A stretch of DNA of 64,000 nucleotides from contig NW_027183595.1 of the NCBI RefSeq assembly GCF_041296385.1, forward strand, positions 1 to 64,000, in the 5' to 3' direction. The position numbers were made by a program, and so were the translations under genes. This stretch comes from Aphelocoma coerulescens. Its lineage: Eukaryota; Chordata; Aves; Passeriformes; Corvidae. This document shows, one piece after another, positions 4,501-63,112 of this stretch; position 1 is the first letter of the stretch, and the number at the start of each line of letters is the position of its first letter. Under the pieces are notes generated by a model that did no database searches, was not told where the DNA came from, and saw nothing but the letters and a program-made list of their open reading frames with translations.

Positions 4501-7500
4501 GTGGCCGTGCCCTCGCCGCGGACGGTGGCCCTGCTGTTCCAGCCGGTGCTGCTGCGGTGCCAGTTCCAGGTGGGCACGGCGGGGCCGCCGCCCGTCGTCA
4601 CCTGGAAGTACAAATCCTTCTGCCCCTCGCCCGCCGCGGGCGCCGGCGACACCTGGGGGGCACCTGGGGGCACCTGGGCCACGCCCGAGGAGGCGGCCGG
4701 CGCCTGCCCCGACTCGGCTCGCACCGTGCGCATCGTGGCCACCAAGCAGGGCGACGCCGTGACCCTCGGGGACTTCTACAGGGGGCGGGCCGTGACCATC
4801 CAGGGAGGTGGGGCGCACCTGGGGGCACACCTGGGCACACCTGGGGATGGTTGGGACACACCTGGGGGCACCTGGGGGCATCTGGGGATGGTTGGGACAC
4901 ACCTGGGCACACCTGGGCACACCTGGGACACACCTGGGCACACCTGGGGTCACCTGGGGATGGGTGGGACACACCTGGGGGCACCTGGGGGCATCTGGGA
5001 CACACCTGGGGGCACCTGGGGGCATCTGGGGATGGGTGGGGGCACACCTGGGCACACCTGGGGGCACCTGAGCACACCTGGGGCACACCTGGGGGCACGT
5101 GGGGGCATCTGGGGGCACCTGGGGATGGGTGGGACACACCTGGGCACACCTGGGGCACCTGGGCACACCTGGGGGTATCTGGGGATACCTGGGGATGGGT
5201 GGGACACACCTTGGACACACCTGGGCACACCTGGGCACAGCTGGGTGGGGGGGACACTCACCTGGGCGACGCCGTGACCCTCGGGGACTTCTACAGGGGG
5301 CGGGCCGTGACCATCCAGGGAGGTGGGGGCACACCTGGGGGCACACCTGGGCACACCTGGGGCACCTGGGGCGCACCTGGGGGCACCTGGGCACACCTAG
5401 GGATGGCTGGGGGCACCTGGGCACACCTGGGCACAGCTGGGACACACCTGGGACACACCTGGGCACACCTGGGGCACACCTGGGGCACACCTGGGGGTAC
5501 CTCGGACACACCTGGGGGCACACCTGGGGGCACACTTTGGGCACACCTGGGGCACACCTGGGGGCACACACCTGGGCACACCTGGGCACAGCCGCCCCCC
5601 CCGTGCCCAGGTGCGGAGCTGAGCCTGGGCCCCGCGGCCTGGGGCGACAGCGGCCTCTACGTCTGCACCGTCACCTCCACCAGCGACCTGCAGGGCAACA
5701 ACGAGGCCGTGGCCGAACTGGTCGTACTGGGTGAGACTGGGAGCGACTGGGAGCGACTGGGAGGGGATTTGGGGGGCACTGGGAGGGGATTGGAGGGCAC
5801 TGGGAGGGACTGGGAGCGACTGGGAGGGACTGGGAGGGAGTGGAGGGGATTGGGGGGGCACTGGGAGGGGATTGGGAGGGGATTGGGAGCACTGGGAGGG
5901 GCTGGGTGGGGATTGGGAGGGACTGGGAGGGACTGGGAGGGGATTGGGGGGCACTGGGAGGGGATGGAGGGGGACTGGGAGGGACTGGGAGGGGATTGAG
6001 AGGGGATTGGGGGGCACTGGGAGGGAATTGGGAGGGACTGGGAGGGACTGGGAGGGGATTGGGGGGACTGGGAGGGGCTGGGTGGGGATTGGGAGGGACT
6101 GGGAGGGACTGGGAGGGGATTGGGGGGCACTGGGAGGGGATGGAGGGGGACTGGGAGGGACTGGGAGGGGATTGAGAGGGGATTGGGGGGCACTGGGAGG
6201 GAATTGGGAGGGACTGGGAGGGACTGGGAGGGGATTGGGGGGACTGGGAGGGGATTGAGAGGGACTGGGAGGGGATTGGGGGGGACTGGGAGGGGATTGG
6301 GGGGACTGGGAGGGGATGGAGGGGGGACTGGGAGGGACTGGGAGGGGATTGGGGGGCACTGGGAGGGGCTGGGAGTGACTGGGAGGGGATTGGGGAGGGG
6401 ATTGGGAGCACTGGGATGGACTGGGAGGGGATTTGGGGGGCACTGGGAGGGGATTGGGAGCACTGGGAGCGACTGGGAGGGGATTTGGGGGGCACTGGGA
6501 GGGGATTGGGAGGGGATTGGGAGCACTGGGAGGGGATTGGAGGGACTGGGAGGGGATTGGGGGGCACTGGGAGGGAATTGGGAGGGACTGGGAAGGGATT
6601 GGGAGGGACTGGGAGGGGATTGGGAGCAACTGGGAGGGGATTGGGAGGCACTGGGAGTGACTGGAGGGATTGGGGGGGACTGGGGAGGGGGATTGGGAGG
6701 GACTGGGAGGGGATTGGGAGGGACTGGGAGGGGATTGGGAGCACTGGGATGGACTGGGAGGGATTGAGAGGGGATTGGGGGGCACTGGGATGGACTGGGA
6801 GTGACTGGGAGCGACTGGGAGGGGATTTGGGGGGCACTGGGAGGGGATTGGAGGGCACTGGGATGGACTGGGAGGGACTGGGAGGGGATTGGGAGCACTG
6901 GGATGGACTGGAGGGGATTGAGAGGGGATTGGGGGGCACTGGGAGGGAATTGGGAGGGACTGGGAGGGACTGGGAGGGGATTGGGGGGCACTGGGAGGGG
7001 ATTGGGAGGGACTGGGAGGGGATTGGAGGGCACTGGGATGGACTGGGAGGGACTGGGAGGGGATTGGGAGCACTGGGATGGACTGGGAGTGACTGGGAGG
7101 GAACTGGGAGGGGATTGGGAGCACTGGGATGGATTGGGAGGGGATTGAGAGGGGATTTGGGGGGCACTGGGAGGGACTGGGATAGACTGGGAGGGGACTG
7201 GGATAGACTGGGAGGGGATTGGGAGGGACTGGGAGGGACTGGGAGGGGATTGGGAGGGGATTGGGAGCACTGGGTGGGGATTGGGGGAGACTGGGAGGGG
7301 ATTGGGGGAGACTGGGAGGGGATTGGGAGCACTGGGAGGGACTGGGAGGGGACTGGGAGGGGATTTGGGGGGCACTGGGATGGACTGGGAGTGAGTGGGA
7401 GGGGATTGGGAGGGGATTGGGAGGGGATTGGGGGGACTGGGAGTGACTGGGGCAAACTGGGAGAGCTCTGGGGTTCTACTGGGAGGGACTGGAATGAACT

Positions 7501-10500
7501 GGGAGGGACTGGGATGGACTGGAATGAACTGGGAGGGACTGGAATGAACTGGGATGAACTGGGAGGGACTGGGAGAGCTCCGGGGTTGTACTGGGAGGGA
7601 CTGGGATGGACTGGGATGAACTGCGAGGGCTCTGGGGTTGAACTGGGATGAACTGGGATGGACTGGTATGAACTGGGCTGGACTGGGAGAGGTCCGGGGT
7701 TGCACTAGGATGAACTGGGATGGATTGGGATGAACTGGGAGAGCTCTGGGGTTGAACTGGGCTGAACTGGGAGAGCTCCGGGGTTGCACTGGGATGGACT
7801 GGGATAAACTGGGAGAGCTCTGGGGTTGAACTGGGCTGAACTGGGAGAGCTCCGCGGTTGCACTGGGATGGACTGGGATGAACTGGGAGAGCTCCGGGGT
7901 TGTACTGGGATGAACTGGGAGAGCTCCGGGGCTGAACTGGGCTGAACTGGGCTGAACTGGGAAAGCTCCGGGGTTGAACTGGGATGGACTGGGATGGACT
8001 GGGCTGAACTGGGAGAGCTCCGGGGTTGAACTGGGATGAACTGGGCTGAACTGGGCTGAACTGGGAGAGCTCCGGGGTTGGACTGGATGAACTGGGATGG
8101 ACTGGGCTGAACTGGGAGAGCTCCGGGGTTGGACTGGGCTGAACTGGGATGGACTGGGCTGAACTGGGAGAGCTCCGGGGTTGGACTGGGCTGAACTGGG
8201 CTGAACTGGGAGAGCTCCGGGGTTGCACTGGGCTGAACTGGGCTGAACTGGGATGAACTGGGAGAGCTCCGGAGTTGGACTGGGCTGAACTGGGCTGAAC
8301 TGGGCTGAACTGGGATGAACTGGGAGAGCTCCGGGGTTGAACTGGGCTGAACTGGGCTGGGACTGGGCTGGACTGGGCTGAACTGGGAGAGCTCCGGGGT
8401 TGAACTGGGCTGAACTGGGATGAACTGGGAGAGCTCCGGGGATGGACTGGGCCGAACTGGGAGAGCTCCGGGGTTGAACTGGGATGGACTGGGCTGAACT
8501 GGGAGAGCTCCGGGGTTGAACTGGGCTGAACTGGGCTGGACTGGGAGAGCTCCGGGGTTGGACTGGGATGAACTGGGAGAGCTCCGGGGTTGAACTGGGC
8601 TGAACTGGGCTGGACTGGGAGAGCTCCGGGGTTGGACTGGGATGAACTGGGCTGAACTGGGAGAGCTCCGGGGTTGCACTGGGATGAACTGGGATGGACT
8701 GGGCTGAACTGGGAGAGCTCTGGGGTTGAACTGGGCTGAACTGGGATGGACTGGGCTGAACTGGGAGAGCTCCGGGGTTGAACTGGGATGGACTGGGCTG
8801 AACTGGGAGGTACTGGGATGAACTGGAATGAACTTGGGAGAGCTCTGGGGTTGAATTGGGATGGACTGGGCTGAACTGGGAGAGCTCCGGGGTTGAACTG
8901 GGATGAACTGGGATGGACTGGGAGAGCTCCGGGGTTGAACTGGGATGGACTGGGCTGAACTGGGGAGGTACTGGGATGAACTGGAATGAACTGGGAGAGC
9001 TCTGGGGTTGAATTGGGATGGACTGGGCTGAACTGGGAGAGCTCTGGGGTTGAACTGGGATGAACTGGGATGGACTGGAGAGCTCCGGGGTTGAACTGGG
9101 ATGAACTGGGATGGACTGGGCTGAACTGGGCGGTACTGGATGAACTGGAATGAACTGGGAGAGCTCCGGGGTTGAATTGGGATGGACTGGGCTGAACTGG
9201 GAGAGCTCCGGGGTTGAATTGGGATGGACTGGGCTGAACTGGGAGAGCTCCGGGGTTGGACTGGGCCCCTCCCCCCCCGTGTCCCCCCAGGGTCTCTGCC
9301 CGAGGGCTCCCGGCTCCTGCCCGAGGGGACCCTGCCAGGTACGGGGGGGGCACCTGGGGGCAACTGGGGGCAACTGGGGGGGACCTGGGGGCACCTGGAA
9401 GGGACTGGGGGGCACCTGGGGGGGACGTGGGGGCACCTGGAGGGCACCTGGGCACACCTGGGGGCACCTGGGGGCACCTGGGGGCACCTGGAGGGCACCT
9501 GGAGGGCACCTGGGGACACCTGGGGGCACCGGGAGGGCACCTGGGGGCACCTGGAGGGCACCTGGGCACACCTGGGGGCACCTGGGGGCACCTGGAGGGC
9601 ACCTGGAGGGCACCTGGGGACACCTGGGCACACCTGGGGGCACCTGGAGGGCACCTGGGGACACCTGGAGGGCACCTGGGGGGAGCTGGGGGGCACCTGG
9701 GGGCACCTGGAAGGGACCTGGGGGCACCTGGGGGTACCTGGGCACACCTGCAGGGGACGTGGGGGCACCTGGGCACACCTGGGGGCACCTGGAGGGCACC
9801 TGGGGGCATCTGGAAGGGACCTGGGGGCACCTGGGGGCACCTGGGGGGGACGTGGGGGCAGCTGGGCACACCTGGGGGGTACCTGGGGGCACCTGGAGGG
9901 GACATGGGGGCACCTGGGGGCACCTGGGGGCAACTGGGGGCACCTGGAAGGGACTGGAGGGCACCTGGGGGGGACGTGGGGGCACCTGGGGGGCACCTGG
10001 GTGTGGGGGAGGGGCCCAGGTGGGTGCGGGGGGCACCTGGGTGAGGTTTGGGATCATTTGGGGGCCGTTTTGGGCCATTCCGGGTGGTTTTGGGGCCATT
10101 TTGGGGCCGTTCCGGGTGGTTTTGGGGCTGTTTTGGGGCGATTTTGGGTCATTCCGGGTGGTTTTGGGGCCATTTTGGGTCATTCCGGGTGGTTTCGGGG
10201 CCATTTTGGGGCCATTTTGGGTCATTCCGGGTGGTTTTGGGGCCGTTTTGGGTCATTCCGGGTGGTTTTGGGGCCATTTTGGGGCCGTTTTGGGCCATTT
10301 TGGGTCATTCCGGGTGGTTTTGGGGCCATTTTGGGCCATTCCGGGTGGTTTCGGGGCCATTTTGGGGCCGTTTTGGGGCCGTTTTGGGCCATTCCGGGTG
10401 GTTTCGGGGCCGTTTTGGGGCGATTTTGGGCCATTCTGCGTGGTTTTGGGGCGATTTTGGGTCATTCCGGGTGGTTTTGGGGCCGTTTGGGCCATTCCGG

Positions 10501-13500
10501 GTGGTTTCGGGGCCGTTTTGGGGCCGTTTTGGGCCGTTCCGGGTGGTTTTGGAGCCTTTCTGGGTGGTTTCGGGGCCGTTCCGGGTGGTTTTGGGGCCAT
10601 TTTGGGGCCGTTTTGGGGCCGTTTTGGGCCATTCCGGGTGGTTTTGGGGCCATTTTGGGTCATTCCGGGTGGTTTTGGGGCCATTTTGGGGCCGTTTTGG
10701 GGCGATTTTGGGTCATTCCGGGTGGTTTTGGGTCCGTTCTGGGTGGTTTTGGGGCCATTTTGGGTCATTCCGGGTGGTTTTGGGTCCGTTCTGGGTGGTT
10801 TTGGGGCCATTTTGGGTCATTCCGGGTGGTTTTGGGGCCATTTCAGGGCAATTTTGTGTCATTCCGGGTGGTTTCGGGGTGATTTTGGGTCATTCCGGGT
10901 GGTTTTGGGGCCGTTTCGGGGCCGTTTTGGGTCATTCCGGGTGGTTTTGGGGCCATTTTGGGGCCCTTTTGAGTCATTCTGGGTGGTTTTGGGGCGATTT
11001 TGGGTCATTCCGGGTGGTTTTGGGGCCATTTTGGGCCGTTTTGGGGCGATTTTGGGTCCGTTCCGGGTGGTTTTGGGGCCGTTTCGGGGCCGTTTTGGGT
11101 CATTCCGGGTGGTTTTGGGCCATTTTGGGGCCCTTTTGAGTCATTCTGGGTGGTTTTGGGGCGATTTTGGGTCATTCCGGGTGGTTTTGGGGCCATTTTG
11201 GGGCCGTTTTGGGGCGATTTTGGGTCCGTTCCGGGTGGTTTTGGGCCGTTTTGGGTTATTCCGGGTGGTTTCGGGGCCGTTTTGGGACGTTTTGGGGCCA
11301 TTTTGGGTCATTCTGGGTGGTTTTGGGGCCGTTTTGGGCCATTCCGGGTGGTTTCGGGGCCGTTTTGGGGCCATTTTGGGCCGTTCCGGGTGGTTTTGGA
11401 GCCTTTCTGGGTGGTTTCGGGGCCGTTCCGGGTGGTTTTGGGGCCGTTTTGGGGCCGTTTTGGGGCCGTTTTGGGCCATTCCGGGTGGTTTTGGAGCCTT
11501 TCTGGGTGGTTTCGGGGCCGTTCCGGGTGGTTTTGGGGCCGTTTTGGGGCCGTTTTGGGGCCATTTTGGGCCGTTCCGGGTGGTTTTGGAGCCTTTCTGG
11601 GTGGTTTCGGGGCCGTTCCGGGTGATTTTGGGGCCGTTTTGGGCCGTTTTGGGCCATTCTGGGTGGTTTTGGGGCCATTTTGGGTCATTCCGGGTGGTTT
11701 TGGGGCCATTTTGGGGCCGTTTTGGGGCGATTTTGGGTCATTCCGGGTGGTTTTGGGTCCGTTCTGGGTGGTTTTGGGGCCATTTTGGGTCATTCCGGGT
11801 GGTTTTGGGGCCATTTCAGGGCAATTTTGTGTCATTCCGGGTGGTTTCGGGGTGATTTTGGGTCATTCCGGGTGGTTTTGGGTCCGTTCCGGGTGGTTTC
11901 GGGGCCCTTTTGAGTCATTCTGGGTGGTTTTGGGGCCATTTTGGGTCATTCCGGGTGGTTTTGGGTCCGTTCTGGGTGGTTTTGGGGCCATTTTGGGTCA
12001 TTCCGTGTGGTTTCGGGGCCATTTTGGGGCCATTTTGGGCCGTTCCGGGTGGTTTTGGAGCCTTTCTGGGTGGTTTCGGGGCCATTCCGGGTGGTTTTGG
12101 GGCCGTTTTGGGGCGATTTTGGGTTATTCCGGGTGGTTTCAGGGCCGTTTTGGGGCCATTTTGGGTCATTCCGGGTGGTTTTGGGGCCGTTTCGGGGCAA
12201 TTTTGTGTCATTCCGGGTGATTTTGGGGCCCTTTTGGGGCCCTTTTGGGTCATTCTGGGTGGTTTTGGGGCCATTTTGGGTCATTCTGGGTGGTTTCGGG
12301 GCCGTTTTGGGCCATTCTGGGTGGTTTTGGGGCCGTTTTGGGGCGATTTTGTGTCATTCCGGGTGGTTTTGGGGCCATTCTGGGTGGTTTCGGGGCCGTT
12401 TTGGGCCATTCCGGGTGGTTTTGGGGCCGTTTCGGGGCAATTTTGTGTCATTCCGGGTGATTTTGGGGCCATTTTGGGGCCCTTTTGGGTCATTCCGGGT
12501 GGTTTCGGGGCCATTTTGGGCCATTCCGGGTGGTTTCGGGGCCGTTTTGGGGCGATTTTGGGTTATTCCGGGTGGTTTCAGGGCCGTTTTGGGGCCATTT
12601 TGGGTCATTCCGGGTGGTTTCGGGGCCGTTTTGGGTTATTCCAGGTGGTTTTGGGGCCGTTCCGGGTGGTTTTGGGGCCATTTTGGGGCCATTTTGGGGC
12701 CGTTTTGGGCCATTCCGGGTGGTTTTGGGGCCATTTTGGGTCATTCCGGGTGGTTTTGGGGCCATTTTGGGGCCGTTTTGGGGCGATTTTGGGTCATTCC
12801 GGGTGGTTTTGGGGCCATTTTGGGTCATTCCGGGCGATTTTGGGCCATTCTGGGTGGTTTTGGGGCCGTTTTGGGTCATTCTGGGTGGTTTCGGGGCCGT
12901 TCCGGGTGGTTTTGGGGCCATTTTGGGGCTGTTTTGGGGCGATTTTGGGTCATTCCGGGTGGTTTTGGGGCCATTTTGGGGCCGTTTTGGGGCGATTTTG
13001 GGTCCGTTCCGGGTGGTTTTGGGGCGATTTTGGGTCATTCCAGGTGGTTTTGGGGCCATTTTGGGCCATTCCGGGTGGTTTTGGGGCCATTTTGGGTCAT
13101 TCCGGGTGATTTTGGGGCCGTTTTGGGCCATTCCGGGTGGTTTTGGGGCCATTTTGGGTCATTCCGGGTGATTTTGGGTCCGTTCCGGGTGGTTTTGGAG
13201 GCCATTTTGTGTCATTTCGGGTGGTTTCGGGGCCGTTTTGGGGCAATTTTGGGTCATTCTGGGTGGTTTTGGGGCCGTTCTGGGTCATTCCGGGTGGTTT
13301 TGGGGCCATTTTGGGGCGATTTTGGGTCATTGTGGGTGGTTTCGGGGCCATTTTGGGCCATTCCGGGTGGTTTCGGGGCCGTTCCGGGTGGTTTTGGAGC
13401 CTTTCTGGGTGGTTTCGGGGCCATTCCGGGTGGTTTTGGGGCCATTTTGGGGCCGTTTTGGGGCCATTTTGGGTCATTCCGGGTGGTTTCGGGGCCGTTC

Positions 13501-16500
13501 CGGGTGGTTTCGGGGCCGTTCCGGGTGGTTTCGGGGCCGTTTGGGTGCTTTTCGGGGCCGTTTGGGTGCTTTTCGGGGCCGCTCCACGGCTCTCTCGCCG
13601 TGCCCAGACTGGCTCTTCGTGGCGCTGGTGGCGCTGGGCGCGGCGCTGGTGGCGCTGGGGGCGGGGCTGTGCTGGTGCCAGTGCTGCCCCCACACCTGCT
13701 GCTGTTACCTGCGCTGCCCCTGCTGCCCCCGCACCTGCTGCTGCCCCGAGGCCCGTGAGTCACCTGGGGGGGCACCTGGGGGGCACCTGGGGGCACCTGG
13801 GGGTGTCTGGGCACACCTAGGGGGCATCTGGGGGCACCTGGGAGCACCTGGGGGTACCTGGGGGGCACATGGGGGGGACCTGAGGGTGCTGGGAGGGGGT
13901 TCTGGGCTCACCTGGGGGGCACCTGGGGGTATCTGGGCACACCTGGGAGCACCTGGGGGCATCTGGGGGCACCTGGGGGGGATCTGGGGGGGGTCTGGGG
14001 GTGTCTGGGCACACCTGGGGGCACCTGGGGGGGATCTGGGCTCACCTGGGGGCACTTGGGGGGACCTGGGGGTGCTGGGAGGGGGTTCTGGGCTCACCTG
14101 GGGGGCACCTGGGGGTGTCTGGGCACACCTGGGAGCACCTGGGGGCACCTGGGAGCACCTGGGGGCACCTGGGGGCACCTGGGGGCACCTGGGGGGCACC
14201 TGGGGGTGTCTGGGCACACCTGGGGGGCATCTGGGGGCACCTGGGGGCACCTGGGGGGCATCTGGGGGGGACCTGGTGGCACCTGGGGGTGCTGGGAGGG
14301 GGTTCTGGGCTCACCTGGGGGGCACCTGGGGGTGTCTGGGCACACCTGGGGGCACCTGGGGGCACCTGGGAGCACCTGGGGGCACCTGGGGGGCACCTGG
14401 GGGTGCTGGGAGGGGGTTCTGGGCACACCTGGGGGGCACCTGGGGGGCACCTGGGGGTGTCTGGGCACACCTGGGGAGATCTGGGCACACCTGGGGGGGT
14501 TCTGGGCACACCTGGGCACAGCTGGGGGTTACCTGGGGGGCACCTGGGGGGCATCTGGGGGGACCTGGGCACACCTGGAGGGGTTCTGGGCACACCTGGG
14601 CAGGTTCTGAGCTTACCTGGGCACACCTGGGGGGTACCTGGTGGGCACCTGGGGGGGTTCTGGGCACACCTGGGGGGTTTCTGGGCTCACCTGGGGGGCA
14701 CCTGGGCACACCGGGGGGGGTTCTGGGCACACCTGGGCACACCTGGGCACACCTGGGCACACTTGGGGGGGTTCTGGGCTCACCTGGGGGGGTATCTGGG
14801 CACACCTGGGGGGTACCTGGGCACACCTGGGCACACCTGGGGGGGTTCTGGGCACACCTGGGGGGGTTCTGGGCACACCTGGGGGGTACCTGGGCACACC
14901 TGGGAGGGTTCCTGGCCGAGCTGCGAACAGCCCTGGCCATGGCCGTGCCCACCTGTGCCCACCTGTGCCCACCTGTGCCCACCTGTGCCCCCCTCAGTGT
15001 ACCTGGCCGGGAAAGCGGCGACCTCGGGGGGCACCTTCGTCCCCTCCCCCCCCCCCGCGCTGGCGCTGCAGCTCCTCGGTGAGTGGGGGAGGGGCGGGGA
15101 GGGGGGAGGGGCCCAGGGGTGCCCAGGGGTGCCCAGGGGTGCCCAGGGGTGCCCAGGTGAGGCCTCACCTGTCCCCTCCCCCACCCCAGGGAGCAGCCAG
15201 AGCTCGCAGGTGCCGCTGCTGAGGGAGAGCAACAGCCCCGGTGAGGGACTGGGAGGGACTGGGAGGGACTGGGGGGGAACTGGGAGGGATTGGGGGGGAC
15301 TGGGGGGGAACTGGGAGGGACTGGGATGAACTGGGAGGGGATGGAGGAGAACTGGGAGGGACTGGGAGGGGATTGGGGGGAGCTGGGAGCGACTGGGAGA
15401 AACTGGGAGGGACTGGGAGATACTGGGAGGGGATTGGAGGGGACTGGGAGGGACTGGGAGATACTGGGAGGGACTGGGAGGGGATGGAGGAGAACTGGGA
15501 TGGACTGGGAGGAACTGGGAGGGGATTGGGGGGGACTGGGAGGGGATTGGGGGGGACTGGGAGGGACTGGGAGATACTGGGAGGCACTGGGAGGGGATGG
15601 AGGAGAACTGGGATGGACCGGGAGGGCACTGGGAGGGGATTGGGAGGGACTGGGAGGGACTGGGATCAAACTGGGAGGGACTGGGATGAACTGGGAGGGC
15701 ACTGGGAGATACTGGGAGGGTCTGGGATCAAACTGGGAGGGGATTGGGATGGGATGGGGTGAACTGGGAGGGCACTGGGAGATACTGGGAGGGACTGGGG
15801 GGGGATTGGGGGGGACTGGGAGGGCACTGGGAGGGACTGGGGGGGACTGGGATGAACTGGGAGGGCACTGGGACTCACCGCCCCTCCCCCCTCTCTCTCT
15901 CTCCCCGCCCCTCCCCCCCCCCCCAGCCCCCTCGGTGCCCCTCCCCCCCCCCAGCGTCCTGCGGTGCCTGGAGGAGCCCTGGGACCCCCCCGGGAGGGGC
16001 CGGGCCTGGGGGGCAGGTGGGGGTGGGGGAGGGGCGGGAGGACCCCTGGAGGTGGGGGAGGGGCTGGGACCACCTGAGGGGGGGGGAGGGGTCCCCTGGG
16101 TGTGGGGGGAGGGGCTGGGACCCCCTGGGGGTGGGGGAGGGGCGGGGGAAACCCCAGAGCGTGGGGGAGGGGCGGGGACCACCTGAGGGGGGGGAGGGGC
16201 CCTCTGGGGGTGGGGGAGGGGCGGGGGGACCACCTGAGAGGGGGGAGGGGTCCCCAGGGTGTGGGGGAGGGGCTGGGACCCTCTGGGGGTGGGGGGAGGG
16301 GCGGGGGAAACCCCAGAGCGTGGGGGAGGGGCGGGGACCACCTGAGGGGGGGGAGGGGTCCCCTGGGTGTGGGGGGAGGGGCTGGGGGTCCTCTGAGGGG
16401 GGGGAGGGGTCCCCAGGGTGTGGGGGGAGGGGCTGGGACCACCTGAGGGGGGGAAGGGGTCCTCTGGGGGTGGGGGGAGGGGCTGGGGGTCCTCTGAGGG

Positions 16501-26600: not shown

Positions 26601-29090
26601 GACCCCAGACCCCTTTTTGGGACCCTCCGATCCCTTTTTGGGACCCCAGACCCCTTTTTGGGGACCCCAGACCCCTTTTTGAGACCCTCACACCCCTTTT
26701 TGCGACCCTCCGTTCACTTTTTAGGACCCCAGACCCCTTTTTAGACGCCCCCCGCCCCCTCCCCACAACCACCCCGCCGCTTTCCCATCACCGTTTATTG
26801 CCGCCCCGCCCCCTCCTCACTCCGGGGGGGGTCTCCCCTCAATCCTCCCCATCCCGGGGGGGCTCGGGGGGTGCCCAGAGGGCCCCGATGGCGGCGGCCC
26901 CCCCGTCCCAGCGCCGCCGCAGCTGCTGCGAGCTCCTCCCGGCCCTTTGGGGACCCCAGACCCATTTTTGGGGACCCCAGACCCCTTTTATGGGACCCCA
27001 GACCCATTTTTAGGGACCCCAGACCCCTTTTTGGGACCCCAGACCCCTTTTTGGGACCCTCCCACCCCTTTTTCGGGTGCTTCCATCCCTTTTTAGGGAC
27101 CCCAGACCCATTTTTAGGACCCCAGACCCCTTTTGGGGACCCCAGACCCCTTTTTGGGGACCCCAGACCCGTATTTAGGGTGCTCCGATCCCTTTTTGGG
27201 GACCCCAGACCCATTTTTGGGACCTTCCCACCCCTTTTTGGGACCCCAGACCCCTTTTTTGGGTGCTCCGATCCCTTTTTGGGACCCCAGACCCATTTTT
27301 GGGGACCCCAGACCCAATTTTAGGGACCCCAGACCACTTTTATGGGACCCCAGACCCATTTTTAGGACCCCAGACCCCTTTTTGGGGACTCTCCCACCCC
27401 TTTTTGAGGACCCCAGACCCCTTTTAGGGACCCCCAGACCCCTTTTTAGGGTGCTCCGATCCCTTTTTGGGACCCCAGACCCCTTTTATGGGACCCCAGA
27501 CCCCTTTTTTGGGACCCCAGACCCCTTTTTGGGACCCTCCCACCCCTTTTCCGGGTGCTTCCATCCCTTTTTAGGGACCCCAGACCCATTTTTAGGACCC
27601 CAGACCCCTTTTGGGGACCCCAGACCCCTTTTTGGGGACCCCAGACCCGTATTTAGGGTGCTCCGATCCCTTTTTGGGGACCCCAGACCCATTTTTGGGA
27701 CCTTCCCACCCCTTTTTGGGACCCCAGACCCCTTTTTTGGGTGCTCCGATCCCTTTTTGAGGACCCCAGACCCCTTTTAAAGACCCTCCCGCCCCTTTTT
27801 CGGGTGCTCCGATCCCTTTTTAGGGACCCCAGACCCATTTCTGAGGACCCCAGACCCCTTTCCAGGACCCCCCTGACCGCTTTTAGGGACCCCAGACCCC
27901 TTTTAGGCCCCCCCCAGACCGCTTTTAGGGACCCCAGAGCCCTTTTTAGGACCCCAGACCCATTTTTGGGACCCTCCGATCCCTTTTTGGGGACCCCAGA
28001 CCCCTTTTTGGGGACCCCAGACCCCTTTTTGAGACCCTCCCACCCCTTTTTAAGGCCCTCCCACCCCTTTTTAGGACCCCAGACCCCATTTTGAGACCCT
28101 CCCATCCCTTTTTATGACCCCAGACCCCTTTTTGGCGACCCTCCCTCCCCTTTTTGAGGACCCCAGACCCCTTTTAGGACCCCCCTGACCCCTGTTAAGG
28201 ACCCCAGACCCATTTTTGGGACCCTCCCACCCGTTTTTTGGGACCCCAGACCCATTTTTAGGGACCCCAGACCCCTTTTATGGGACCCCAGACCCCTTTT
28301 TGGGACCCTCCCACCCCTTTTTCGGGTGCTTCCATCCCTTTTTGAGGACCCCAGACCCATTTTTAGGACCCCAGACCCCTTTTTGGGGACTCTCCCACCC
28401 CTTTTTGAGGACCCCAGACCCCTTTTAGGGACCCCAGACCCCCTTTTTGGGGACCCCAGACCCCTTTTTAGGACCCCAGACCCCTTTTTGGGACCCTCCG
28501 ATCCCTTTTTGGGACCCCAGACCCCTTTTAGGGACCCCAGACCCCTTTTTGGGGACCCCAGACCCCTTTTTAGGACCCCAGACCCCTTTTTGGGACCCTC
28601 CGATCCCTTTTTGGGACCCCAGACCCCTTTTTGAGGACCCCAGACCCATTTTTAGGACCCCAGACCCCTTTTTGGGGACTCTCCCACCCCTTTTTGAGGA
28701 CCCCAGACCCCTTTTAGGGACCCCAGACCCCTTTTTGGGGACCCCAGACCCCTTTTTAGGACCCCAGATCCCTTTTTGGGACCCTCCGATCCCTTTTTGG
28801 GACCCCAGACCCATTTTTGGGGACCCCAGACCCCTTTTTGGGGACCCCAGTTCCCTTTTTGGGACCCTCCGATCCCTTTTTGGGACCCCAGACCCCTTTT
28901 TGAGACCCTCCCACCCCTTTTTCGGGTGCTTCCATCCCTTTTTAGGGACCCCAGACCCATTTTTAGGACCCCAGACCCCTTTTGGGGACCCCAGACCCCT
29001 TTTTAGGGACCCCAGACCCCATTTTAGGGTGCTCCGATCCCTTTTTAAGACCCCAGACCCATTTTTGGGACCTTCCCATCCCTTTTCCGG
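23690..29090. repeat. Intergenic ACCCCAGACCCCTTTTTGGGG minisatellite, partly duplicated
   Basis: A ~20-bp unit ACCCCAGACCCCTTTTTGGG with variants such as GGTGCTCCGATCCC and CTCCCACCCCTTTTTGAGG fills 5.4 kb downstream of the APOE-like gene. About 25100-25840 is near-identical to 27712-28452, an offset of 2612 bp. A block around 23925-24040 recurs near 27165 and 27645. Confidence 0.9.
26792..26935 (-). pseudogene. Truncated copy of the APOE-like last exon and 3' end
   Basis: The segment is nearly identical to 29095-29243. Read on the - strand it gives QQLRRRWDGGAAAIGALW, then APPEPPRDGED and a TGA stop at 26841-26839, and then AATAAA at 26799-26794. The receptor-binding helix and everything upstream are missing; minisatellite resumes directly. 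It has no acceptor or start, so it is a partial duplicate carried along with the array. Confidence 0.88.
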
Positions 29091-29096
29091 GACCCG

Positions 29097-29102
29097 TTTA
29101 TT
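29097..29102 (-). terminator. APOE: APOE-like gene polyadenylation signal AATAAA
   Basis: Read on the - strand the hexamer lies about 48 bases after the stop codon at 29152-29150. It gives a very short 3' untranslated region before the minisatellite. Confidence 0.8.
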
Positions 29103-29149
29103 GCCGCCCCGCCCCCTCCTCACTGCGGGGTGGGGGGGGGGGTCTCCCC

Positions 29150-29402
29150 TCAATCCTCCCCATCCCGGGGGGGCTCGGGGGGTGCCCAGAGGGCCCTGAT
29201 GGCGGCGGCCCCCCCGTCCCAGCGCCGCCGCAGCTCCTCCGAGTCGCGGTTCAGGCGCTTGCGGAGCTTCCGAGCGAAGGCGGCTCCGCGGGCGCGGAGA
29301 TCGGCCGCGCTCAGCTCCAGCAGCGCCCGCGCCTCCGCCCCGTACTCGGCCACGCGGCCCCGAGCCTCGTCCCGCAGCTCCCGCAGCTCCCGCAGCGCGT
29401 TC
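29150..29402 (-). CDS. APOE: APOE-like last exon: receptor-binding helix and stop
   Basis: After a CCCCAG acceptor it encodes NALRELRELRDEARG, then the helix with RKLRKRL at protein residues about 109-115, then AIRALWAPPEPPRDGED and TGA. The repeated REL triplets near its start are part of the segment copied into the intron. Confidence 0.93.
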
Positions 29403-32400
29403 CTGGGGGAAAAAACGGGATTTTGGGTCATTTTGGGGGTGCTTGAATCCCTCTGGTCGCTTTTTTCGGGGAAAAAAAACGGGATTTTGGGTCATTTTGG
29501 GGAGTTTAGAATCCCTATAGAGTCCCTATGGGTTCCTATAGAGTCCCTGAATCCCTAAGGTCGCGGTTTTGGGGGGAAAAAAACGGGATTTTGGGTCATT
29601 TTGGGGGTCCCTGAATCCCTATAGAGTCCCTATGGGTTCCTATAGAGTCCCTGTGGGATCCTATAGAAACCCGACGGGATCGTCCCGCAGCTCCCGCAGC
29701 TCCCGCAGCGCGTTCCTGGGGAAAAAAACGGGATTTTGGGTCATTTTGGGGGTGCTTGAATCCCTATTGTGTCCCTATGGGATCCAATAGAGTCCCTGTG
29801 GGTCCCTATAGAAACCCGACGGGATCGTCCCGCAGCTCCCGCAGCTCCCGCAGCGCGTTCCTGGGGAAAAAACTGGGATTTTGGGCCATTTTGGGGAGTT
29901 TAGAATCCCTATAGAGTCCCTGAATCTGTCTGGTCGCGTTTCTGGGGGAAAAAACCGGGATTTTGGGTCATTTTGGGGGTGCTTGAATCCCTATTGTGTC
30001 CCTATGGGTTCCTATAGACTCGCTATGGGTCCCTATAGAAACCCGACGGGATCGTCCCGCAGCTCCCGCAGCTCCTGCAGGGCGTTCCTGGGGGAAAAAA
30101 CCGGGATTTTGGGTCATTTTGGGGGTCCTTGAATCCCTCTAGTCGCGTTTTTTGGGGAAAAAAACGGGATTTTGGGTCATTTTGGGGGTGCTTGAATCCC
30201 TATAGAGTCCCTATGGGAGCTCCCGCAGCTCCCGCAGCTCCCGCAGGGCGTTCCTGGGGGAAAAAACCGGGATTTTGGGTCATTTGGGGGAGTTTAGAAT
30301 CCCTATTGTGTCCCTATGGGTTCCTATAGAGTCCCTATGGGAGCTCCCGCAGCTCCCGCAGCTCCCGCAGCGCGTTCCTGGGGGAAAAAACCGGGATTTT
30401 GGGTCATTTTGGGGGTGCTTGAATCCCTCTGGTCGCGTTTTTTGGGGAAAAAAACGGGATTTTGGATCATTTTGGGGGTCCTTGAATGCCTCTGGTCGCG
30501 TTTTTTGGGGAAAAAACCGGGATTTTGGGCCATTTTGGGGAGTTTAGAATCCCTATTGTGTCCCTATGGGTTCCTATAGAAACCCTATGGTAGCTCCCGC
30601 AGCTCCCGCAGCTCCCGCAGCGCGTTCCTGGGGAGAAAAAATGGGATTTTGGGCCATTTTGGGGAGTTTAGAATCCCTATAGAGTCCCTGAATCTGTCTG
30701 GTCGCGTTTCTGGGGGAAAAAAACGGGATTTTGGGTCATTTTGGGGGTGCTTGAATCCCTATTGTGTCCCTATGGGTTCCTATAGAGTCGCTATGGGTCC
30801 CTATAGAAACCCGACGGGATCGTCCCGCAGCTCCCGCAGCTCCTGCAGGGCGTTCCTGGGGGAAAAAACCGGGATTTTGGGTCATTTTGGGGGTCCTTGA
30901 ATCCCTCTAGTCGCGTTTTTTGGGGAAAAAACCGGGATTTTGGGTCATTTTGGGGGTCCTTGAATGCCTCTGGTCGCGTTTTTTGGGGAAAAAACGGGGA
31001 TTTTTGGTCATTTTGGGGAGTTTAGAATCCCTATAGAGTCCCTATGGGTTCCTATAGAAACCCTATGGTAGCTCCCGCAGCTCCCGCAGCTCCCGCAGAG
31101 CGTTCCTGGGGGGAAAAACCGGGATTTTGGGCCATTTTGGGGAGTTTAGAATCCCTATAGAGTCCCTGAATCTGTCTGGTCGCGTTTCTGGGGGAAAAAA
31201 ACGGGATTTTGGGTCATTTTGGGGGTGCTTGAATCCCTATTGTGTCCCTATGGGTTCCTATAGAGTCGCTATGGGTCCCTATAGAAACCCGACGGGATCG
31301 TCCCGCAGCTCCCACAGCTCCTGCAGGGCGTTCCTGGGGGAAAAAACCGGGATTTTGGGTCATTTTGGGGGTCCTTGAATCCCTCTAGTCGCGTTTTTTG
31401 GGGAAAAAACCGGGATTTTGGGTCATTTTGGGGGTGCTTGAATCCCTATAGAGTCCCTATGGGAGCTCCCGCAGCTCCCGCAGCTCCCGCAGCGCGTTCC
31501 TGGGGGAAAAAAACGGGATTTTGGGTCATTTTGGGGAGTTTAGAATCCCTATAGAGTCCCTATGGGTTCCTATAGAGTCGCTATGGGTCCCTATAGAAAC
31601 CCTATGGGTCCCTATGGGATCGTCCCGCAGCTCCCGCAGCTCCCGCAGGGCGTTCCTGGGTAAAAAAACCGGGATTTTGGGTCATTTTGGGGAGTTTAGA
31701 ATCCCTATAGAGTCCCTATGGGTCCCTACAGAGTCCCTGAATCCCTCTGGTCGCGTTTTTTGGGGGAAAAAAACGGGATTTTGGGTCATTTTGGGGTCCC
31801 TGAATCCCTCTAGGAGTCCTTAAATCCCTACAGAGTCCCTGAATCCCTCTGGTCGTGTTTTTGGGGGAAAAAATCGGGATTTTGGGTCATTTTGGGGGAG
31901 TTTAGAATCCCTACAGAGATCCCGAATCCCTCTGGGCGCGTTCCTGGGGGAAAAAACGGGATTTGGGGTCATTTTGGGGGAGTTTAGAATTTTTGGGGTT
32001 TTCCCCCCAATTTTTGGGGTTTCCTCCCCCAGTTTTTGGGGTTTTCTCCTCCAATTTTTGGGGTTTTCTCCTCCAGTTTTCCCCCCAAATTTTGGGGGCT
32101 TTCCCCCTCAATTTTTGGGGTTTCCTCCCGTCAATTTTTGGCGTTTTCTCCCCCAGTTTTTGGGGTTTTCACCCCTCAATTTTTGAGGATTTGTCCCCCA
32201 ATTTTTTGGGTTTTCTCCTCCAACTTTTTGGGGTTTTCTCCTCCAATTTTTGGGGTTTTCCCCCTCAATTTTTGGGGTTTTCTCCTCCAATTTTTGGGGT
32301 TTTCCCCATCAATTTTTGGGGGTTTTCCCCCTCAATTTTTGGGGTTTTCTCCTCCAATTTTTGGGGTTTTCCCCTCAATTTTTGGGGTTTCCTCCCCTCA

Positions 32401-34534
32401 ATTTTTGAGGATTTCTCCCCAAATTTTGGGGGGTTTCCCCTCTTATTTTTGGGGTTTCCTCCCCTCAATTTTTGAGGATTTCTCCACCAATTTTTGGGGG
32501 TTTTCCCCCTCAATTTTTGAGGTTTCCCCCCCCCCAATTTTTTTGTTTTTCCCGCCTCAATTTTTGGGTTTTCCCCCATCAATTTTTGGGGTTTCCCCCC
32601 ATCAATTTTTGGGGGTTTTCCCCCTCAATTTTTGGGGTTTTCTCCTCCAATTTTTGGGGTTTTCCCCTCAATTTTTGGGGTTTCCTCCCCTCAATTTTTG
32701 AGGATTTCTCCACCAATTTTTGGGGGTTTTCTCCCCCAATTTTTGGGGTTTCCTCCCCTCAATTTTTGAGGATTTCTCCCCCAATTTTTTGGGTTTTCTC
32801 CTCCAATTTTTGGGGTTTTCTCCCCCTCAATTTTTGGGGTTTTTCCCTCAATTTTTGGGGTTTCCTCCCCTCAATTTTTGACGATTTCTCCACCAATTTT
32901 TGGGGGTTTTCCCCCTCAATTTTCGGGGTTTCCCCCCCCAACTTTTTTGTTTTTCCCGCCTCAATTTTTGGGTTTTCCCCCATCAATTTTTGGGGTTTCC
33001 CCCCATCAATTTTTGCGGGTTCCTCCCCCAATTTTTTTGGGGTTTCTTCCTCCATTTTTGGGGTGTCCCCACCCCCCGATTTTTGGGGTCCCCGCACTCA
33101 CTGCAGCCGCTGGCCCAGGGGACTCTCCCGCAGCCTCTCGGTCGCGTTTTTGGCCACCTCCTCCAGGGCCCCCAGGAGCCCCCAGACCTTCGAGGGCAGC
33201 GCGGGGGGGGCGGGGGGCTTCGGCGTGGGGGAGGGGTCGTCAGCCCCGCAGCCTGGGGGAGGGGAAGGGGGAGGGGGAAAAAAAAAAAAAGGGGGAGATT
33301 CACCCCAAAAATCGCCCTCGAATTCCTTCAAAACCCACCCTGGATCCTTGAAAAAAATCCCCCGAAATGCCCCCAAAAATCCCTCAAGATTCCTCCCAAA
33401 ATCCCTCAAAATTCCTCCCAAAATCTCTCAAAAATCCCTCAAAATTCCTCCCAAAATCCCTCAAAATTCCTCCCAAAATCTCTCAAAAATCCCTCAAAAT
33501 TCCTCCCAAAGTCCCTCAAAATTCCTCCCAAAATCCCTCAAAAATCCCTCAAAATCCCCCCCAAAATCCCTCAAAAATCCGCCTCCAAACCCCTCAAAAA
33601 TCCGCCCCCAAATGCTTCCAAAAATCCCCCGAAATCCCTCAAAAATTCTCTCCAGAAATTCCCCCAAATTGCGCCAATTCCCCCTCAAAATTCCGTCCTC
33701 AAATCCCTCAAAAATCCCCCCTCCCGGATGGCCCCAAAATCCCTCAAAAATCCCTCAAAAAAATCCCTCAAAAATCCCCCCAAAATCCCCCCAAAATCCC
33801 TCCAAAAATCCCTCAAAATCCCTCAAAAAATTCCCCCAAACCCCCCCCAAAATCCTCAAAACTCCACCAAAAATTCCTCCAAAATTCGCCGCCAAATCCC
33901 TGAAAAAATCCCTGAAAAAATCCCTGAAAAAAATCCCTCAAAAATCCTCCCAAAATCCCCCCCAAAATCCCTCAAAATCCCTAAAAAAACCCCAAAAAAT
34001 CCCTAAAAATCCCTCAAAAATCCCTCAAAAATCCTCCCAAAACCCCCCCAAAATCCCTCAAAAAATCACTAAAAATCCCTCAAAAATCCTCCCAAAAATC
34101 CCTCCAAAACCCCTCCAAAATTCCTCAAAATTTCCCCCAAAAATCCCTCAAAAAAAACCCCCCAAAATCCCTCAAAATTCCCCCCCAAAATTCCTCAAAA
34201 ATCCCTCAAAATTCCGCAAAAAATCCCTCAAAAATCCCTTAAAATTCCTCCAAAATTCCCCCCAAAAATCCCTCAAAAAAAACCCCCAAAAATCCCTCAA
34301 AATTCCCCCCAAAATTCCTCAAAAATCCCTCAAAATCCCCCCAAAAATCCCTCAAAATTCCGCCAAAAATCCCTCAAAAAATCCCCCCCAAATCCCCCAA
34401 AAATCCCCTTGAAAAATCCCTCCCCAAATCCCCCCAAATTGCCCCAAATTCGCCCAAATTCCCCCAATTTGGGGCCGATGACGTCACTCACCTGCCAGCA
34501 GCGTCACCGCCACCAGCGCGACCCAGAACTTCAT
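29150..34534 (-). CDS. APOE: Short apolipoprotein E-like secreted protein (148 aa), three coding exons
   Basis: The coding parts are 34534-34492, 33252-33102 and 29402-29150, after a non-coding first exon, with phases 1 and 2 at the junctions as in mammalian APOE. The start MKFWVALVAVTLLAG resembles the mammalian apoE signal peptide. The middle exon gives a proline-rich start and an amphipathic stretch (KVWGLLGALEEVAKNATERL) with an NAT glycosylation sequon. The last exon aligns with human apoE around RGEVQAML through LRKLRKRLLRDADDL: here it has RGRVAEYGAEARALLEL and FARKLRKRLNRDSEELRRRW. The RKLRKRL core is the LDL-receptor and heparin-binding site in apoE. The protein then stops, lacking the hinge and C-terminal lipid-binding domain of the 317-residue human protein. 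TOMM40 lies upstream on the same strand. No frameshift or internal stop is present. Confidence 0.88.
29403..31970 (-). repeat. APOE-like intron array carrying eleven copies of the last exon's 5' edge
   Basis: Units of about 110-250 bp contain GGGATTTTGGGTCATTTTGG, GGTTCCTATAGAGTCCCTAT and, in many, the acceptor plus first ~33 bases of the last exon. Those copies lie near 29680-29722, 29821-29862, 30050-30090, 30215-30258, 30337-30380, 30590-30630, 30817-30860, 31067-31108, 31296-31340, 31462-31503 and 31620-31660. Read as an exon, many give NALRELRELRDDP, then VGFL and a stop. Confidence 0.92.
31971..33085. repeat. APOE-like intron, CAATTTTTGGGGTTTTCTCC minisatellite
   Basis: A ~30-bp unit (CAATTTTTGGGGTTTTCCCCC and variants) fills the rest of the intron up to the middle exon. 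Confidence 0.88.
33102..33252 (-). CDS. APOE: APOE-like middle exon: mature N-terminus
   Basis: It encodes CGADDPSPTPKPPAPPALPS, then KVWGLLGALEEVAKNATERL and RESPLGQRLQ. A CTCCCCCAG acceptor and a GTGAGT donor flank it; phase is 1 at the start and 2 at the end. It is shorter than the corresponding mammalian exon and only loosely similar to it, so identity rests mainly on the other exons and gene structure. Confidence 0.88.
33290..34450. repeat. APOE-like intron, CCCTCAAAATTCCTCCCAAAAT minisatellite
   Basis: Units of CCCTCAAAAATCC and CCCAAAATCC fill the intron between the signal-peptide exon and the middle exon. The - strand is G/T-rich. Confidence 0.88.
34479..34486. promoter_or_regulatory. 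CRE site TGACGTCA beside the signal-peptide exon donor
   Basis: A perfect palindromic CRE lies directly after the GTGAGT donor of the signal-peptide exon. Its role is unknown. Confidence 0.4.
34492..34534 (-). CDS. APOE: APOE-like signal-peptide exon
   Basis: It encodes MKFWVALVAVTLLA plus one base, 43 nt as in mammalian APOE. The start sits in a strong Kozak context (GCCACCATGA). The exon begins at 34542 after a CCCGCAG acceptor, leaving 8 bases of 5' untranslated sequence. The donor is GTGAGT. Confidence 0.93.
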
Positions 34535-34552
34535 GGTGGCACCTGCGGGGCC

Positions 34553-35900
34553 CCAAAATGTCCCAAAATGCCCCAAAATGCCCCAAAATATCCCAGAATG
34601 TCCCCAAAATGTCCCTAAAATGCCCCAAAATGCCCCAAAATGTCCCTAAAATGGCCCCAAATGGCCCCAAAATGTCCCAAAATGTCCCAAAATGTCCCCA
34701 AAATGCCCCAATTGTCCCCAAAATGTTCCCAAAATGCCCCAAAATGCCCCAAAATATCCCAGAATGTCCCCAAAATGTCCCTAAAATGCCCCAAAATGCC
34801 CCAAAATGTCCCTAAAATGGCCCCAAATGGCCCCAAAATGTCCCAAAATGTCCCAAAATGTCCCCAAAATGCCCCAATTGTCCCCAAAATGTTCCCAAAA
34901 TGCCCCAAAATGTCCCAAAATGTCCCAGAATGTCCCCAAAATGGCCCCAAAATGGCCCCAAAATGTCCCAAAATATCCCAGAATGTCCCCAAAATGGCCC
35001 CAAAATGTCTCAAAATGTCCCAAAAGGGCCCCAAAATGTCTCAAAATGGCCCCAAATGTCCCCAAAATGTCCCAAAATGGCCCCAAATGTCCCAAAATGC
35101 CCCAAAATGGCCCCAAAATGTCTCAAAATGTCCCAAAAGGGCCCCAAAATGTCTCAAAATATCCCAGAATGTCCCCAAAATGTCCCAAAATGGCCCCAAA
35201 TGTCCCAAAATGTCCCCAAAATGCCCCAATTGTCCCCAAAATGTTCCCAAAATGCCCCAAAATGTCCCAAAATGCCCCAAAATGTTCCCAAAATGCCCCA
35301 AAATGTCCCCAAAATGCCCCAATTGTCCCCAAAATGTTCCCAAAATGCCCCAAAATGTTCCCAAAATGCCCCAAATTGTCTCTAAAATGCCCCAAAATGT
35401 CCCTAAAAGGCCCCAAAATGTTCCCAAAATGCCCCAAAATGTCCCAAAACGTCTCCGATTGTCCCCAAAATGTCCCCAAAATGCCCCAAATTGTCTCTAA
35501 AATGCCCCACAATGTCTCAAAATGTCCCCAAAATGCCCCAATTGTCCCCAAAATGTTCCCAAAATGCCCCAAAATGTCCCAGATTGTTCCCAAAATGCCC
35601 CAAAATGTTCCCAAAATGCCCCAAATTGTCTCTAAAATGCCCCAAAATGTCCCCAAAATGTTCCCAAAATGCCCCAAAATGTCCCAAAACGTCTCCGATT
35701 GTCCCCAAAATGCCCCCAAAATGCCCCAAATTGTCTCTAAAATGCCCCAAAATGTCCTCAAAATGCCCCAAAATGTCCCTAAAAGGCCCCAAAATGCCCC
35801 AAAAATGTCCCGGATTGTCCCAGATTGTCCCCAAAATGTCCCAAAAATGTCCCCAAATTGTCCCCAACTCCCTGAATTGTCCCCAAAAGGCCCCGTCCCC
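34553..35900. repeat. APOE-like intron 1, CCCCAAAATGTCCC minisatellite
   Basis: Units of about 13 bp (CCCCAAAATG and TGTCCC variants) start immediately beside the acceptor and run for 1.3 kb. Confidence 0.88.
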
Positions 35901-36545
35901 CCAAAATCCCCCCCAAAAAACCCCAAATCCCCCCAAAATCCCCCCAAATCCCCCCAAATCCCCCAAATCCCCCCAAATCCCCCAAAAGCCCCAAAATTCC
36001 CCCTGAAAGTCCCCCAAATCCCCCCAAAAATCCCCCAAAATCCCCCCAAAAGCCCCCAAAATCCCCCCAAAATCCCCCCAAATCCCCAAAATCCCCCAAA
36101 ATCCCCAAAATCCCCCCAAAATCCCCCAAATCCCCCCAAATCCCCCAAAAGCCCCAAAATTTCCCCTAAAAGTCCCCCAAATCCCCTCAAAAATCCCCCA
36201 AAATCCCCCCAAAAGCCCCCAAAATCCCCCCAAAATCCCCCAAATCCCCCCAAATCCTCCCCAAAATCCCCAAAATCCCCCCAAATCCCCCCAAAATCCC
36301 CTCAAATCCCCCCAAAATCCCCCCAAAATCCCCCAAATCCCCCCCAAAATCCCCCCAAATCCCCCAAATCCCCCCAAAATCCCCCCAAATCCCCCAAAAT
36401 CCCCCCCAAAATCCCCCCAAATCCCCCAAAATCCCCCAAATCCCCCCAAATCCCCAAAATCCCCCCAAAATCCCCCCCAAAATCCCCCCAAATCCCCCAA
36501 AATCCCCCCAAAATCCCCCAAAATCCCCCCCAAAATCCCCCCCAA
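35901..36545. repeat. APOE-like intron 1, CCCCCCAAATCCCCC minisatellite
   Basis: CCCCCAAAATCC units without the TG of the preceding block. The - strand is G/T-rich. Confidence 0.88.
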
Positions 36546-36568
36546 TGTCCCCTCCCCCCCCCCCTCAC

Positions 36569-36590
36569 CCGTGGGGTCCCTCCGGCTCCC
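36569..36590 (-). other. APOE: Probable non-coding first exon of the APOE-like gene
   Basis: A donor CACGG|GTGAGG lies at 36569/36568, about 25-50 bases downstream of a TATA-like box on the - strand. Mammalian APOE also has a short non-coding first exon. The 5' end given here is an estimate from TATA spacing. Confidence 0.5.
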
Positions 36591-36599
36591 CCCTCCCCC

Positions 36600-36675
36600 C
36601 AAAGGGGGGGACCCCTAAATACCCCCGGGTGGGGGCGGGGCGGGGGGCGGGGCCCGCCTGACCTTTGAACCCCCC
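36600..36675 (-). promoter_or_regulatory. APOE: APOE-like promoter: DR1 nuclear-receptor site, GC boxes, TATTTA box
   Basis: Read on the - strand, GGTTCAAAGGTCA (36671-36659) is a near-consensus DR1 element of the kind bound by HNF4, PPAR/RXR or COUP-TF. It is followed by several CCCCGCCC boxes and TATTTA at 36621-36616. This is the typical layout of liver apolipoprotein promoters. Binding itself is an inference. Confidence 0.65.
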
Positions 36676-62620: not shown

Positions 62621-62835
62621 GCCCACCTTGGTCCCGCCCCCGCGCTCTCCCCATTGGCTGCCGCCTCACGGCCTAGTTCCCGTCCCGCCTTCCGGGGTCA
62701 GGGGCGAGTGAAACCCCGCCTATCTCGTGACGTGTCGCTCTGTGATTGGATAATGTGCGCGATGGCGTCTCCCTCCGGGCGCTCCCATTGGCTGAGGCCG
62801 CGCGGGGGCCGCGCCACCATAGAGGCGCCAAGGGC
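62560..62835 (-). promoter_or_regulatory. TOMM40: TOMM40 CpG-island promoter with five inverted CCAAT boxes
   Basis: ATTGG (CCAAT on the - strand) occurs at 62581, 62612, 62653, 62745 and 62787. They sit in a CpG-rich, non-repetitive stretch with GC boxes and no TATA box. Multiple NF-Y sites are typical of housekeeping mitochondrial genes. Confidence 0.7.
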
Positions 62836-62860
62836 GCGCGGGGAGGAGCGGCCGCTCAGG

Positions 62861-62975
62861 GCGCCGCCATCTTGGGGCGGGCGGCGCTGGAGGACCGTCG
62901 CCATGGCAACGGCCGCGGTTGGGGGGGGGCCGAGCGCTTCTATCGCCGCTGTCGCCTCTATCGCGATAGGGGCGG
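62861..62975 (+). promoter_or_regulatory. YY1 site, RFX X-box and palindrome upstream of TOMM40
   Basis: GCCGCCATCTTGG at about 62862 is a YY1 motif. GTCGCCATGGCAAC at 62897-62910 is a perfect X-box (GTNRCC, two bases, RGYAAC) as bound by RFX factors. CTATCGCGATAG near 62959 is a 12-base palindrome. The block could belong to a divergent + strand promoter, but no + strand exon was identified. Confidence 0.5.
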
Positions 62976-63085
62976 GGCCATTTCCGCCCCTCCCGGACCC
63001 CCCGGGACCCCCCCCAGCCCCCGTTTGGTTTTTTTTTTCTTCCCGTCGAGCTTTGCGCTTTTCCCGTTTTATTTTATTGGGGGTG

Positions 63086-63112
63086 TGACGTCACGCGGCG
63101 CGGGTGACGTCA
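63086..63112. promoter_or_regulatory. Pair of CRE sites upstream of TOMM40
   Basis: TGACGTCA occurs at 63086-63093 and 63105-63112 in a CpG-rich stretch at the end of the non-repetitive promoter region. Confidence 0.6.

Follow-up and report, generated by a model that had tools for sequence, protein, structure and literature searches.

In mammals, TOMM40 and APOE lie in that order, and the introns of human APOE are in phase 1 at the end of the signal peptide and in phase 2 before the last exon. The APOA genes share these phases, and therefore the pattern is not diagnostic for APOE. The isoforms of human apoE are defined at positions 112 and 158, apoE4 having Arg at both, and mammalian apoE needs lipid for strong LDLR binding. 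N-terminal fragments of apoE and receptor-mimetic peptides, which are cleavage or synthetic products, carry the receptor-binding helix without the C-terminal domain. To our knowledge, a shortening of APOE in Neoaves has not been described. Two papers describe birds as having no apoE, one tying this to hollow bones (PMC6854765) and the other calling it an avian-specific loss (PMC9509584). No report of an avian APOE was found in the literature searched (best matches among titles and abstract openings, with subscription journals and bioRxiv little covered), and term searches gave no occurrences in PMC4290089 and PMC9974502. A further system that bears on this locus is the exon stuttering described on chicken dot chromosomes by Hron et al. 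2026 (PMC12954441); in the accessible part of that paper repeat blocks were not observed crossing into exons, and neither 'apolipoprotein' nor 'TOMM40' occurs.

The locus described here is from the Florida scrub-jay, Aphelocoma coerulescens (assembly 1.33 Gb). The window, by which we mean the whole stretch of DNA analysed, spans positions 1-64000 of C175, a contig of 193592 bases. On its minus strand, behind TOMM40, a coding span at 34534-29150 gives a 148-residue product after splicing, with one phase-1 and one phase-2 intron. A first-pass annotation had described this gene, and its coding exons, phases, RKLRKRL motif, stop and AATAAA were all confirmed. Exon 2 (34542-34492, minus strand) contains the Kozak context GCCACCATG, the start codon at 34534, a signal-peptide-like start and a phase-1 donor, and contributes 43 coding nucleotides (34534-34492). 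Exon 3 (33252-33102, minus strand, 151 nt) encodes a Pro-rich tail, the sequon NAT at residues 50-52 and the first helix, and closes with a phase-2 donor. Exon 4 (29402-29150, minus strand, 253 nt including the stop) encodes the receptor-binding helix with RKLRKRL, and a motif scan placed the polyadenylation signal AATAAA at 29102-29097 on the same strand. The GC3 of the coding sequence is 0.93.

A liver-type promoter had also been proposed, and this, the signal peptide (assigned by eye) and exon 1 are putative assignments. The candidate elements, all on the minus strand, are a DR1-like nuclear-receptor motif, GGTTCAAAGGTCA (36671-36659), which may act in the promoter and is the single match to a relaxed DR1 pattern in the 64 kb with both strands scanned; a TATA-like TATTTA (36621-36616), of which the window's minus strand has one other copy, at 644; and a predicted non-coding exon 1 (36591-36569) that would begin ~30 nt past TATTTA and end at the donor CACGG/GTGAGG.

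The product is 100% identical to a database entry, 'apolipoprotein E-like [Aphelocoma coerulescens]', which also confirms that the genome is avian, and the same protein search returned 11 further bird entries; 11 of these 12 are named 'apolipoprotein E' or 'E-like'. The presence of APOE in birds is thus not new to databases, since NCBI-type annotation already names the genes. Together with these entries, the best PDB match of the jay sequence (apoE, 7.3e-9) and its match to Pfam PF01442 (E 3.6e-7, over 68 of 190 positions, at 30.5 bits and thus far under the gathering score of 90) indicate that the gene is more than a chance reading frame. All 12 bird entries match PF01442 at E <=0.1 (best 2e-13). 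A comparison with NCBIfam, a prokaryote library, gave nothing informative. In the PDB comparison apoE ranked first and apoA-IV was a close second. For the jay sequence alone apoA-IV reached 6.1e-7, and the separation was weak for a bird profile (apoE 5.4e-13, apoA-IV 3.5e-12) and for Rhea apoE (1.9e-24 versus 2.9e-24).

Because the PDB searches separate apoE and apoA-IV poorly, trees were built with APOA outgroups. The apoE side comprised 8 of the 13 short bird entries together with 8 long apoEs, and the APOA side five rows, namely the last exons of three APOA-type genes of the jay itself (contig C25) and human apoA-I and apoA-IV. We take the three jay genes to be A1, A4 and A5, and the tree confirms A1. 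The split between the 16 apoE-type rows and the five APOA rows had a support of 100/100, or of 100/99 when exon-4 columns alone were used. Forcing the short bird forms together with apoA-IV cost 45 log-likelihood units (AU p 0.00018), and the same grouping was rejected with exon-4 columns alone (AU p 3.5e-5). When exon-4 columns were used and the outgroup was cut to the two apoA-IV rows, a placement of the short forms as the first apoE branch was not rejected (p 0.245). In these trees the software flagged long branches that meet between the A side and the E side. Over residues 66-126, jay apoE is identical to Rhea and emu at 37-38 of 61 positions and to five mammals and P0015, a long apoE that branches next to birds, at 23-26 of 61, and to the jay A1, A4 and A5 products at 12/61, 15/60 and 16/59.

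An apoE-only tree, made with 24 of the 41 entries fetched and rooted on mammals, branched in the order P0015, Rhea with emu (95/76), and Neoaves (100/100). Within Neoaves, cuckoos, eagles, suboscines and oscines each grouped and the crane fell weakly with the eagles (80/74). The tree thus tracks species groups, some of them with weak support, and leaves the deeper neoavian order unresolved. The branch to Neoaves is long, at 1.04 changes per column. From the trees and the position beside TOMM40, the jay locus is almost certainly the bird orthologue of APOE, passed on by vertical inheritance, and the earlier proposal that APOE persists in this bird appears to be correct.

Compared with mammalian APOE, the jay gene has the same TOMM40 neighbour, a putative signal peptide with LAGC at the exon 2/3 border, and the basic receptor-binding cluster. 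In contrast, its product has 148 rather than ~300 residues, lacks the C-terminal lipid-binding domain and 37 residues before the core, and carries an N-glycosylation sequon and a Pro-rich N-tail. The first-pass annotation had called the gene intact, and this is accurate for the open reading frame but not for the protein, in which the C-terminal half of apoE is missing. The same reduction is seen in 13 entries from 12 neoavian species, which range from 137 to 173 residues, whereas the palaeognath entries are longer (Rhea pennata 248 aa; Dromaius novaehollandiae, the emu, 244 aa) and P0015 has ~271 residues from its likely start. P0015 bears the source name of a SWI/SNF-related protein, which looks like a mistake in naming or a gene-fusion error. 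Two differing zebra finch entries, P0003 and P0006, of 137 aa each, could be alleles, assemblies or tandem copies. The three protein searches had length limits of about 81-259, 186-592 and 136-434 residues; no neoavian-named entry >173 aa was among the matches listed in the latter two (best-sharing 7995 and 7991 candidates scored). Neither was a chicken or duck APOE among the matches listed in any of the three, which does not prove its absence.

The distance from the start of RK(L/F)RKRL to the C-terminal end is 29-59 residues in every one of the 13 short forms and 101-126 in Rhea, emu and P0015. Of 19 named mammal entries 18 were examined; the motif was found in 16 of them, and there the distance is 123-202. 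Jay and palaeognath apoE are the same gene by the tree, agree over the exon-4 part as given above and have the same sequon, but differ in this distance, which is 40 residues in the jay and 105 and 101 in Rhea and emu. When the gaps of five short rows were mapped against P0015, each row was missing either 26 or 37 residues ahead of the core. The jay lacked 37 there, a further 11 behind the core and the 84 at the end, and crane and sea eagle lacked 26 there, followed by gaps of 4 and 15 and the loss of the final 62. The gap before the core differs by 11 residues between crane and eagles on the one hand and passerines on the other. A crude helix-moment count found 1 lipid-binding-like window in the jay, 0 in the crane, 14 in Rhea and 16 in P0015; the measure is weak, given that tapir apoE has only 9. 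Exon 4 was the only PF01442 match listed on the jay contig in a profile search of contigs. A C-terminal domain elsewhere in the window was considered and rejected, as tblastn with the apoEs of Rhea, emu, P0015, echidna and tapir gave no match to it beyond exon 4 among the best 25 rows. The short bird apoE thus lacks the C-terminal lipid-binding domain, and is an orthologue by descent rather than a canonical two-domain apoE. Separately, the tails after the core look frame-shifted, compared with close relatives, in 2 of the 13 short entries, Morphnus (P0012) and Manacus isoform X2 (P0008); these odd tails may reflect a G-run sequencing error, an isoform or decay.

Conservation in what remains was scanned over 12 short forms, omitting P0003, the second zebra finch entry. 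Residues 100-126 ranked first among 122 contiguous 27-residue windows, with 14 of 27 positions invariant and a mean conservation of 0.85. The signal (residues 1-18) has an equal mean, 0.85, with 7 of 18 invariant, and the tail past residue 126 has 0 of 22. In PDB alignments all residues of the human basic cluster, R134, R136, R142, K143, R145, K146, R147 and R150 in mature numbering, are basic in the jay, where they align with R101, R103, R109, K110, R112, K113, R114 and R117. The jay residues R79 and R125 place Arg at the equivalents of human 112 and 158. A signal-peptide-like start is retained in all 13 short entries, and an N-glycosylation sequon is found in 13/13 of these and in the three long sauropsid-type entries (Rhea, emu, P0015), but in 0/18 mammal entries; in two cuckoos it is at a shifted alignment place.

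The jay product thus consists of a signal-peptide-like start, a Pro-rich N-tail that is probably disordered, one sequon, a short helix, and a long helix ending in the receptor-binding cluster before the stop, with a mature length of ~130 residues. The AlphaFold model has a single helix at 59-136 (pLDDT mostly 88-97 from residue 61), a helix at 35-57 with pLDDT 67-74 and a low-confidence Pro-rich stretch; its mean pLDDT of 78 and pTM of 0.35 leave the whole fold uncertain. With regard to the N-terminal four-helix bundle, the model, at this pTM, shows two helices after the signal, and a Foldseek search with it returned no match. A model of Rhea apoE was of low confidence (mean pLDDT 60), and its weak best matches were apoE fragments (E 1.4e-3).

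Tandem repeats make up 88% of the window, compared with 11% of exon 4, and the DNA of the 193.6 kb contig may be of the dot-chromosome type. It had been suggested that APOE was overlooked because it is buried in GC-rich minisatellites; the repeat load makes this a plausible reason, but the annotation did have the gene, under an apoE-type name in nearly all of the bird entries. In intron 3, a scan of the minus strand found an array (29680-31959) in which the exon-4 acceptor plus the first 36 exon nucleotides recurs 12 times; 11 of these copies have 45-51/52 matches (BLASTN bit scores 77.9-94.2) and one has 38/52. No such copies were found outside intron 3 on the window's minus strand at a threshold of at least 38/52. 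The end of exon 4 is partly duplicated, together with stop and AATAAA, inside the downstream minisatellite (26791-26949, minus strand), with 92% identity over 150 columns at 26791-26932. Intron 3 of the jay gene fits exon stuttering, in that several copies of the adjacent exon's edge with its splice site are present in the neighbouring intron. As in the chicken cases (PMC12954441), an exon border and its splice site are copied locally within an intron and the tandem-repeat load is heavy; the jay case differs from it in that the host is a songbird APOE and a copy of the gene's 3' end is also present downstream.

The claim that the gene sits head-to-tail behind TOMM40 was upheld. TOMM40 exon pieces, in order on the same strand and upstream of APOE (40990-62294, minus strand), match Porin_3 when joined (4.3e-65, positions 1-271 of 271). 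Pieces of LSR, the lipolysis-stimulated receptor, run convergently with APOE on the plus strand (4462-13786; PF05624 6.9e-17, 61.7 bits against a cut-off of 25; an LSR piece gave nothing informative against the PDB). LSR is in mammals a receptor for apoE/apoB lipoproteins, located ~10 Mb from APOE on 19q; its position beside APOE here is curious and proves nothing. Upstream of TOMM40 exon 1, open frames occur on both strands at 62621-63090, the minus-strand one without a significant Pfam match, and further upstream on the contig is an FFAR2-like receptor frame (L009, C175:66342-66875, minus strand; PDB FFAR2 1.7e-40). At ~91-134 kb (L011-L016, minus strand) there are Kelch, attractin-type propeller, laminin-type EGF and EGF_CA pieces, which we presume to be MEGF8, and an apparently similar piece lies at 159.6-160.1 kb.

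Elsewhere in the genome, the three APOA-type genes form a cluster at C25:1007791-1015115, with four rows over the PF01442 cut-off and what we take to be an APOC3-like frame on the strand opposite L023. Arrays of PF01442-like matches at C22:1329564-1332294 and C23:1429696-1431120, the latter containing stops, exceed the cut-off only with their neighbours in frame and are probably helical repeats or low complexity. No second full APOE was seen in the PF01442 profile search (139 of 267 candidates scored, 38 matches listed), a search that gave weak sub-cut-off signals in 6 of 14 control prokaryotes.

The reading we favour, and consider probable, is that this is a bird APOE orthologue reduced in Neoaves to a mini-apoE and kept as a receptor or heparan ligand. 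An unlikely alternative is that it is a decaying relic, the role of APOE having been lost in Neoaves and the frame still looking conserved only because little time has passed and its codons are GC-rich. The long stem branch, the loss of the lipid domain, the two odd tails and the high GC3 would all fit such decay. However, open frames of similar length are present in crane, eagle, cuckoo, suboscine and oscine entries, all 13 of which retain the signal-peptide-like start and the sequon, and the invariant core residues include Lys, Asp and Glu besides those with GC-rich codons. These points are not decisive, as annotated sets favour intact frames.

It is also very improbable that the short protein is just one isoform, with a fuller apoE made by splicing to unrecognised exons. 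The acceptor copies in intron 3 might permit this and the repeats hinder gene prediction, but exon 4 closes with a stop and AATAAA, the crane, eagle and passerine entries stop at a similar place, and both the tblastn and the protein searches, within the scopes given above, returned neither a C-terminal-domain match nor a longer neoavian-named entry. That the locus is another apolipoprotein, apoA-IV-like, which came to adjoin TOMM40 is hardly credible and largely refuted: it accords with the close second place of apoA-IV in the PDB searches, but the clade with jay and human A4 is rejected by both AU tests, and the jay has its APOA-type genes on contig C25.

A reduced APOE orthologue thus remains our preferred reading, and the jay mini-apoE is quite likely a translated, functional protein. 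It would be a small glycosylated protein secreted from liver or brain, whose long basic helix would dock on LDL-receptor-family receptors or heparan sulphate. It might act as a ligand that is poor in lipid or that associates weakly with it, bulk lipid carriage being left to apoA-I, apoA-IV and apoB; the lipid need of mammalian apoE counts against a wholly lipid-free ligand. We place the functional product no higher than this, and regard the receptor or heparan mechanism as tentative, with slightly less than an even chance, because of the long stem branch, the two odd tails among 13 and the annotation bias toward intact frames. The shortening may have been gradual, with an 11-codon unit among its steps. 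Its setting would be a dot-chromosome-type region, in which repeat instability perhaps also gave rise to the many copies of the exon-4 splice boundary within intron 3; the same instability may, although this is unproven, have played a part in deletions affecting the 11-codon repeats in exon 4.

The published absence of APOE in birds is at odds with the jay gene and with the entries annotated in 11 further neoavian species and 2 palaeognaths. As an orthologue in the form of a receptor-binding stub, the gene reveals the part of apoE that selection retains, and the bird mini-apoE offers a system, close to Alzheimer research, for asking what apoE does without its lipid-binding half. Like the apoE N-terminal fragments and mimetic peptides, the jay form has the receptor-binding helix without the C-terminal domain, but it is encoded as such in the genome. 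Perhaps, although we consider it rather doubtful, Neoaves made apoE a small dedicated receptor ligand and passed lipid carriage to other apolipoproteins, with palaeognaths keeping a longer form. If this is true, the mini-apoE of Neoaves would be a receptor-binding fragment that occurs naturally and is encoded in the genome, the jay form having Arg at both apoE4-defining positions, and birds would be a natural experiment that parts apoE receptor signalling from lipid transport.
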